Origin: Deltaproteobacteria bacterium
GTDB taxonomy: Bacteria > Desulfobacterota > Desulfobulbia > Desulfobulbales > Desulfurivibrionaceae
Length of the DNA stretch: 64,000 nt
NCBI GenBank assembly: GCA_026388695.1
Contig: JAPLJH010000067.1
Span: 1-64,000 of the forward strand
Reading direction: 5' to 3'
Shown in pieces: positions 3,668 to 46,988 of the stretch. A model generated the notes under the pieces. It did no database searches. It saw only the letters and a program-made list of their open reading frames with translations, and was not told the origin of the DNA. Both the position numbers and the translations under genes were made by a program. The first letter of the stretch is position 1. The number at the start of each line of letters is the position of its first letter.

Positions 3668-5410
3668 TTACTTGGACCCGGTCCTGATACTACCGACCTG
3701 TCCACCAAAAATCTCAGTGGTCATCTGCACCATGGGGTCATTGGCCAAAATCCGCCGCTCGACAAGCAGACTCTCCGCCTCGTCACCGCCGCCATCGTCG
3801 GTTGCCTGTGTGCCGCGCACCTTGAAGACAACCCGAAAATCGTGCTGGAAAAAATCCAGGACAAAAGCCTGCAAGAGCTTCAAATTGTCATGCTCCTGCA
3901 GCAGCTTGCAGTCAGACGAGTCATCAAACTTCAGAACCAGCTCGCCCCCTTCATCACGGGCGGAGGCGCACAGCTGTAATACCGGAGCCATCCAGCGCTT
4001 GCGCTTTTTGACATACTCAATGAACTCCCCCCAATGCCTTTTTACTTCCCGACCGGTAGGGAAAACGGCGGCCGAGGGAGATGATTGCCCGCTTTGCTCT
4101 TGGGAGGCCGTGGCTTCAGGCGCTATTTCATTTTTTTTTTGTTCCGGAAGCGGCCCGGAAGAAGAGTTAATCGCTGGCCAGGGCATAGACCTAGGCGCGG
4201 TTGGCTCCGGTTCCGCCGTGGAAATCGCCAGCGAGACTGGCCCCCCGACGCCCTGCGGCAGGGAAACGGCCCCAGCCAGCAATCCGTCAAGCCGTCCCAG
4301 CAGGGCAGCCGTCGGCACAATCTGTCCGGCCTGGGTGGCCCGGACAAAGGCCATCTCCAAGGCAAGGCGGGGTCGGGACGAGTATTGCATCTCCTCACTC
4401 CCCTTCAACAGCAGTGAAAAATATTGGTAAAGCGTTTCCTGGCTGACCCCTGAGGCAATATCCTTGATGGCCGCTAGTTCCTGGTCGGAAAGATCCAGCA
4501 GCTCCTCGGGCCGAGCCTTGACCTTAGCAATCAGCAAGGCCCGGAAAAATCCCAACAAATCGTTGGCAAAACGCTTGAGATCCATGCCCGCGGCTTGACC
4601 CTGCTCAAAGATATCAAGGCAACCGGCCAGATCCGCCGCTAAAAGCGCGCGGGCCATGTTTTCATAGATTCGGCGGTCAACCAGCCCCAGAACCTCAGCC
4701 ACATCCCCATCGCTGATTTCATCTCCGCCGAAGGAAAAGAGCTGATCAAGAAGACTTAAGCCATCCCGCACACTGCCTTCGGCCTCCCGCCCGATCATCT
4801 CCAAGGCACGCTGGGACATAACAACCTTTTCCGCTTCGGCGATCCTGGCAAAAAACGCAACCAGCTCGACAAAGGGAACACGCTTAAGCTCATAGCGCTG
4901 ACAGCGGGAGAGGATGGTGATGGGAATCTTGTGCAGCTCGGTGGTGGCGAACATGAAATAGACATGGGCGGGCGGCTCCTCCAGAGTCTTCAACAGGGCG
5001 TTGAAGGCCTCGGTGGTGAGCATGTGCACTTCATCGATGATGATGATCTTGTAGCGGCCCTTGGCAGGAAAAAAACGGATGTTTTCCTTGAGTTCGCGAA
5101 TCTCCTGAATGCCGCGATTGGAGGCGCCGTCGATCTCATGCAGGTCCATGGCGTTGCCGGCCATGATCTCCAGGCACGACTCGCACTGATCGCAGGGCAC
5201 ATCCGGCTCGCCCTGCTGGCAGTTGAGCGCCTTAGCCATGAGCCGCGCCAGGGTGGTTTTGCCAACCCCGCGCACCCCGGAAAAAAGCATGGCATGAGCA
5301 ACCCGGTTACGGGTGAGCGCATTACGCAAAGTGCGCACCACGGCCTGCTGACCGACAACCTCATCGAAATTCTGGGGACGCCATTTTCTGGCTAAAACCA
5401 GGTAGGACAT
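3668..5410 (-). CDS. dnaX: DNA polymerase III subunit gamma/tau
   Basis: 580 aa clamp-loader ATPase. Visible are the Walker A loop (GVRGVGKTT), a zinc module (C...CDQCESC), Walker B (IIIDEVHML), sensor 1 (ATTELHKIP) and the SRC arginine-finger motif (ILSRCQRYEL). A low-complexity Pro/Ser/Glu linker (about 385-450) is followed by a tau-like C-terminal domain. Codons 424-427 are CAA AAA AAA AAT, inside a run of ten A. A slip by one base either way meets a stop within a few codons (TGA or TAG), giving a product of about 427-428 aa, close to E. coli gamma (431 aa). First gene of the dnaX-ebfC-recR operon. Confidence 0.97.
   Translation of the reverse strand: MSYLVLARKWRPQNFDEVVGQQAVVRTLRNALTRNRVAHAMLFSGVRGVGKTTLARLMAKALNCQQGEPDVPCDQCESCLEIMAGNAMDLHEIDGASNRGIQEIRELKENIRFFPAKGRYKIIIIDEVHMLTTEAFNALLKTLEEPPAHVYFMFATTELHKIPITILSRCQRYELKRVPFVELVAFFARIAEAEKVVMSQRALEMIGREAEGSVRDGLSLLDQLFSFGGDEISDGDVAEVLGLVDRRIYENMARALLAADLAGCLDIFEQGQAAGMDLKRFANDLLGFFRALLIAKVKARPEELLDLSDQELAAIKDIASGVSQETLYQYFSLLLKGSEEMQYSSRPRLALEMAFVRATQAGQIVPTAALLGRLDGLLAGAVSLPQGVGGPVSLAISTAEPEPTAPRSMPWPAINSSSGPLPEQKKNEIAPEATASQEQSGQSSPSAAVFPTGREVKRHWGEFIEYVKKRKRWMAPVLQLCASARDEGGELVLKFDDSSDCKLLQEHDNLKLLQAFVLDFFQHDFRVVFKVRGTQATDDGGGDEAESLLVERRILANDPMVQMTTEIFGGQVGSIRTGSK
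4131..4141 (-). promoter_or_regulatory. A10 slippery run in dnaX (candidate gamma-subunit frameshift or slippage site)
   Basis: On the coding strand C is followed by ten A and then TGAAATAG. Frame zero reads Q K K N E I. With eleven A, or a -1 ribosomal shift, it reads Q K K K stop (TGA). With nine A it reads Q K K M K stop (TAG). Homopolymer runs in dnaX cause transcriptional slippage in Thermus, and A-rich heptamers cause ribosomal frameshifting in E. coli. I see no clear stimulatory hairpin or upstream Shine-Dalgarno element. Confidence 0.65.
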
Positions 5411-46953: not shown

Positions 46954-46988
46954 AAAAAAAAAGGAACCAGCCTTTTATGACTGGTTCC
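46954..46988 (-). terminator. intrinsic terminator after tRNA-Arg
   Basis: On the minus strand GGAACCAG (46988-46981), a 10-base loop and CTGGTTCC (46970-46963) form an 8-bp stem followed by nine T (46962-46954). It begins 12 bases after the tRNA 3' end. Confidence 0.9.

Follow-up and report, generated by a model that had tools for sequence, protein, structure and literature searches.

The window analysed here, a stretch of 64,000 nucleotides from a Deltaproteobacteria bacterium (GenBank assembly GCA_026388695.1, contig JAPLJH010000067.1), carries a dnaX gene on its minus strand, and the features of this locus are collected in Table 1. The gene product matched the dnaX N-terminal profile TIGR02397 (dnaX_nterm) with 435 bits and the E. 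coli DnaX chains with an E-value of 3e-85 in a phmmer search. Its N-terminal part showed the expected succession of clamp-loader domains: PF13177 at residues 20-177, the PF22608 lid at residues 187-229 and PF12169 (domain III) at residues 233-371. Comparison with dnaX genes of the same genus revealed that the linker behind these domains was the least conserved region, with 17% invariant residues versus 81% in codons 1-371 and 65% in codons 456-580; invariant codons made up 5.7% of the linker and 28% of codons 1-371. It is in this linker that an uninterrupted run of ten A residues (A10) was found.

On the coding strand, positions 4141-4120 read C AAAAAAAAAA T GAA ATA GCG. With one A added, the run reads ...AAA AAA AAA TGA, and with one A removed it reads ...AAA ATG AAA TAG, where the stop lies two codons on. 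The resulting short product has a calculated mass of 47.0 kDa, compared with 64.0 kDa for tau. The earlier note on this DNA had described an A10 in codons 424-427 followed by stop codons after the gain or loss of one A, and this description was exact, with TGA giving 427 aa and TAG giving 428 aa. The resemblance that it saw to the size of E. coli gamma also held, as the corresponding chain in PDB 8giy has 431 aa.

Table 1. Features of the dnaX locus in the window.
Feature	Position	Strand	Remarks
dnaX, full-length tau in the zero frame	3668..5410	-	580 aa, 64.0 kDa
Clamp-loader part, domains I-III, codons 1-371, common to both products	4298..5410	-	PF13177, PF22608, PF12169
Variable linker, codons 372-455, houses the A10 run	4046..4297	-	Low conservation in the genus
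Tau-specific conserved C-terminal region, codons 456-580, missing in the short product	3668..4045	-	
Candidate A10 slippage run (T10 on the plus strand), inside CAA AAA AAA AAT, codons 424-427	4131..4140	-	Conserved in 13/15 same-genus genes
TGA reached by one added A, two lost A or a -1 ribosomal shift; predicted 427-aa gamma-like product	4128..4130	-	Directly after the run in each of the 13 A10 carriers in the genus
TAG reached by one lost or two added A; predicted 428-aa product	4123..4125	-	From the rare Ile codon ATA plus G
Small hairpin UUCCGG-gccgcuu-CCGGAA, 6-bp stem, one base 5' of the run; possible nascent-RNA stimulator	4142..4160	-	Moderate covariation

Six A10 or T10 runs were present in the 2.58 Mb assembly, both strands counted, and from this count about 0.002 sense A10 runs are expected per gene of 1.74 kb. 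A lone A10 in dnaX is thus rare for one gene and not decisive genome-wide; conservation decides. The only other A9 run of the window (46954-46962) is located next to the inverted repeat AAGGAACCAG/CTGGTTCCTT, adjacent to a minus-strand tRNA-like gene; we read it as the T-tract expected of a minus-strand intrinsic terminator. Scans for terminators and promoters at the dnaX locus itself gave nothing above chance.

A dnaX gene was found in 15 same-genus genomes, and 13 of these carry the A10 in an identical register; the two exceptions were L019, with A6, and L020, without any run. Four members of the same family (L021, L022, L023 and L027) had A9 at that site and TGA at the same place. Codons 424-428 formed the second longest nucleotide-invariant block of the genus dnaX genes, in their least conserved region, and this block is written in minority codons: elsewhere in the same genes, the usage of Lys AAA is 27%, of Gln CAA 16%, of Glu GAA 34% and of Asn AAT 47%. 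The Ile codon ATA, which underlies the stop in the -1 frame, was present in 9 of 12 aligned A10 carriers and accounted for 4% of Ile codons elsewhere. In one further observation, the dnaX of a same-genus genome (G012; L034 / L114) was interrupted around codons 168-175, where about 156 bases separate its two matches, and the A10 site downstream was intact.

To see how far the run extends, we assembled 135 non-identical dnaX genes of the order Desulfobulbales, using both named genome records and whole genomes from this order; the record titles include Desulfurivibrio, Desulfocapsa, Desulfobulbus, Electrothrix and Electronema. A sense run of A9 to A12 at codons 380-460 was present in 75 of the 135 genes, and neither A≥9 elsewhere in the coding sequence nor T≥9 was found in any of them. 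As a null model, synonymous codons were shuffled 200 times within each gene, so that the protein and the codon set of the gene were kept. Genes with a run then numbered 12.7 on average and 23 at most. When the set was thinned to one gene per lineage, the excess persisted, with 35 of 83 genes against 8.1 expected and 19 of 49 against 4.1 expected. As evident from these results, the conservation in close relatives that the earlier note had asked to see extends from the genus to the same linker across the order.

The same comparison bears on the possibility that a charged Lys-Lys-Asn patch is required in the linker and that its AAA codons produce the A run incidentally. The peptide QKKNE is indeed conserved in the genus. 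However, the shuffles preserve the protein and still fall far short of the observed count, and AAA, the minority Lys codon elsewhere, is used at the run in every carrier of the genus. Between lineages of the order, the register, the flanking residues and the exact length of the run (A9 to A12) differ and the run itself persists. We therefore regard an amino-acid constraint as an extremely improbable source of the run.

The state of the run changed at least 25 times on the dnaX protein tree of the order, a rough count since the tree came from a quick search and has several weak branches. No run of A≥9 was present in 60 of the 135 genes. Because the run is missing from these 60 genes and from 2 of 15 in the genus, and because its state changes so often, the run appears from the sequences to be favoured yet dispensable or replaceable. 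Only a few of the 60 run-less genes (L024, L053, L066, L072 and L096) had a substitute slippery heptamer with a near stop; most had no obvious substitute.

Homopolymers grow and shrink, and frequent gains and losses on the tree would also be expected if the run were a replication-slippage hot spot, a functionless contingency tract or an assembly error, the last being a natural concern as the window comes from a metagenome-assembled genome (MAG). Against this neutral reading, the zero frame was intact in nearly all genes, the run was limited to codons 380-460, T≥9 was absent and stops in both shifted frames were enriched, as described below. Moreover, the run recurred in many independent assemblies, single-contig ones included (L171 and L185), and this conservation argues against a base-calling error behind the A10 of the window. 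A neutral or technical origin is very unlikely on these grounds.

Several runs with other layouts were observed. In L183 (G191:C72:31000-34000), the layout was reversed: the zero frame stopped at codon 458, shortly after an A9, and about 199 further codons in the +1 frame encoded the C-terminal part of tau. This is a single MAG, in which a base-calling error is possible; a 10-bp hairpin of -21.8 kcal/mol lay upstream of the run, and relatives of L183 had A11 and an intact tau frame. Outside the order, 9 of 63 dnaX genes had any run of A≥9. In six dnaX genes from other orders of the phylum (L206, L208, L221, L223, L228 and L239), an A9-A10 was located just 25-47 codons before the C-terminus, directly upstream of a conserved motif like HPVVxxAxxxFxGxIxxI, and slippage at these runs would cut off only the last segment.

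The order-wide set was also informative about the type of recoding. We compared observed and expected numbers of order dnaX genes by run length and obtained 18 against 14.2 for A7, 4 against 7.6 for A8, 31 against 6.7 for A9, 39 against 3.8 for A10 and 7 against 2.0 for A≥11. The excess set in sharply at A9 and was absent at A7-A8, and run length from A9 upwards is thus under selection. In many bacterial genomes, selection against slippage runs becomes visible at nine nucleotides (PMC1088944). On sequence grounds, the threshold fits the length of a transcriptional slippage run and not the 7-nt heptamer of ribosomal frameshifting.

The stop codons behind the run were examined with the same shuffling approach. 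A stop within 8 codons was present in the +1 frame of 69 of the 75 run carriers, compared with 42.7 in shuffled genes, and in the -1 frame of 56 of 75, compared with 18.6. Both frames had such a stop in 51 of 75 carriers, compared with 8.9 (maximum 17) under shuffling, and the thinned sets agreed, with 21 of 35 against 4.7 and 9 of 19 against 1.8. Stops in both shifted frames are therefore selected. This selection points to transcriptional slippage, since the addition and removal of bases needs both stops, whereas a -1 ribosomal shift needs one.

A -1 programmed ribosomal frameshift of the E. coli dnaX kind, from A_AAA_AAA to the adjoining TGA, with the run as a long slippery site, has to be weighed against this. 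The heptamer is in phase in the window gene with TGA directly after it, and the -1 product would be identical to that of one added A. Furthermore, A_AAA_AAA is in phase within every run of A≥9, and some ribosomal slippage is possible. However, A7 or A8 would suffice for the heptamer and these lengths showed no excess, the stop in the opposite frame is also selected, and A_AAA_AAG with a close stop was rare in run-less genes. At the window site, which reads A_AAA_AAA_AAT, the E. coli heptamer A_AAA_AAG was absent and no downstream stem-loop of the E. coli type was found. The RNA downstream of the run was in fact less structured than the rest of the same genes (mean rank 0.617 over 75 genes, 0.5 being neutral); in L007, the downstream 55 nt had a stability rank of 0.90, weaker than most windows of the gene. 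Shine-Dalgarno pairing upstream of the run was not enriched either (mean rank 0.592 over 75 genes; anti-SD rank 0.68 in L007). We consider a ribosomal frameshift an unlikely main cause of the pattern.

The earlier note had left the choice between transcriptional and ribosomal recoding undecided. We favour transcriptional slippage as the reading suggested by the sequences, because the excess of runs starts at A9, stops occur in both shifted frames and downstream stimulators are missing. The note had taken the two stops as a strong sign of programmed gamma synthesis. From a single sequence this sign is weak, but it became strong once seen across relatives, and the conservation of the run in the genus and the order is comparative evidence that supports such synthesis. 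Its remark that neither a stimulatory hairpin nor a Shine-Dalgarno element was seen was right for downstream hairpins and for Shine-Dalgarno signals, but overlooked the 6-bp hairpin directly upstream of the run.

This upstream hairpin was compared over 12 members of the genus. Standard pairs filled 91.7% of the pair cells, and three cells were changed on both sides. The covariation score was reached by none of 500 shuffles and fell when the partner was slid by one to three columns. The set is small and made up of close relatives, and the fold differs in L015 and L017, so the hairpin is not in all genus members or carriers; its conservation in the genus is suggestive only. When a longer stretch was folded, the hairpin lay outside the minimum-energy structure, and a role in the nascent RNA would thus require that it forms during transcription, ahead of the synthesis of the downstream sequence. 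Stem-loops in the nascent RNA are a known stimulus of polymerase slippage (PMC5009743), and by analogy it is plausible that the hairpin stimulates slippage in the window dnaX. In a second clade (L071-L091), the upstream hairpin was longer and its covariation weaker: 85% of the cells were paired, and 17 of 500 shuffles scored as high. A general upstream hairpin across the order was also considered and was unsupported, as the stability of the upstream RNA was only slightly raised (mean rank 0.406 versus 0.5).

Taken together, the A10 of the window dnaX is quite probably a programmed transcriptional slippage site that would yield a gamma-like DnaX in the manner of Thermus. RNA polymerase moving over the T10 template would produce a mixed pool of dnaX mRNAs that differ in the number of A residues. 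mRNAs with 10 or 10+3n A residues would be translated into full-length tau. Those with other numbers would lead ribosomes to the TGA right after the run (+1 or -2) or to the TAG two codons further (-1 or +2), and the out-of-frame mRNAs would give a gamma-like DnaX of 427-428 aa that retains domains I-III but not the conserved C-terminal region of tau. We infer that such slippage takes place in the cell at some level, and the short protein would have to be stable and act as gamma.

A second gene with an in-frame A10 was noted in the same genome. This rodZ-like gene (L005 1124-2275, minus strand; G000:C77:52373-53521), with HTH_25 and RodZ_C domains and the A10 in the linker, stands upstream of a recO-like ORF. 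A run of A9-A10 was kept in 8 genus copies, and both shifted frames stop within about 3-9 codons. A synonymous-shuffle test gave 8 of 20 observed against a mean of 3.4 and a maximum of 8 in 500 shuffles, which is suggestive only. One may speculate, with considerable doubt, that the order uses runs of A≥9 with stops in two frames as a regular expression device, in which the dnaX site is repeatedly lost and regained, is tuned by upstream nascent-RNA hairpins and has counterparts in further genes such as the rodZ-like one.

The extent to which bacteria derive two clamp-loader proteins from dnaX, and the mechanisms they use, are known for few species. If the proposed slippage is true, gamma is made via polymerase slippage in a large order of sulfur-cycle bacteria that includes cable-bacteria lineages. 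The purpose of gamma has long been disputed from the E. coli system (PMC5009743), and frequent gain and loss of the run would offer natural pairs with and without it in which this purpose can be asked about. In addition, an excess from A9 upwards together with stops in both frames provides a simple comparative test between transcriptional and ribosomal recoding that works without RNA data.

We finally compared the window dnaX with the known systems. It shares with E. coli dnaX nearly the same position of the site, the size of gamma and a stop beside the slippery site. In contrast to the E. coli gene, it lacks A_AAA_AAG, a downstream stem-loop and an upstream Shine-Dalgarno element, its run is far longer and stops follow in both frames. 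By its sequence, it thus departs from the E. coli type in three defining features and retains the adjacent stop in the -1 frame. GeneTack revealed 17 dnaX genes in which tau needs a shift, nine of them with A10, and relatives in Chlorobium have A7-A9 (PMC3711429). These two-ORF genes resemble the window dnaX in the poly-A at the junction of gamma and tau, for which transcriptional slippage was proposed (PMC3711429). The arrangement is the opposite, however: in the window, tau is read in the zero frame (580 aa) and gamma needs the shift, whereas L183 resembles the two-ORF layout. Slippage of the Roseiflexus IS630 type also has a stem-loop directly upstream of the tract (PMC5009743), although its tract is U5C5 and its stimulator is proven, while the window hairpin has a putative role and is not in all carriers. 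We found no earlier report on dnaX frameshifting in this order in the literature searched, which did not extend to older subscription papers and supplements.

The closest match was dnaX of Thermus thermophilus, in which transcriptional slippage on A9, with near stops in both frames, gives tau and gamma (PMC1088944, PMC5009743, PMC4320859). Both genes have a zero-frame tau ORF, a sense run of A≥9, near stops in both shifted frames and a short product without the C-terminal region. The two sites were similar but not identical. The Thermus A9 lies about seven-eighths along the gene, with UGA 2 and 16 codons on (PMC1088944, PMC4320859), whereas the A10 of the window sits at codon 424 of 580, within the linker that precedes the conserved C-terminal region; its two stops follow at a distance of 0 and 2 codons, and a small hairpin flanks it on the 5' side. 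All Thermus-type features that can be read from sequence, namely the run, both stops and a selected length, were present in the window. The window dnaX most likely adds to the known Thermus-type slippage a spread across an order of sulfur-cycle bacteria.
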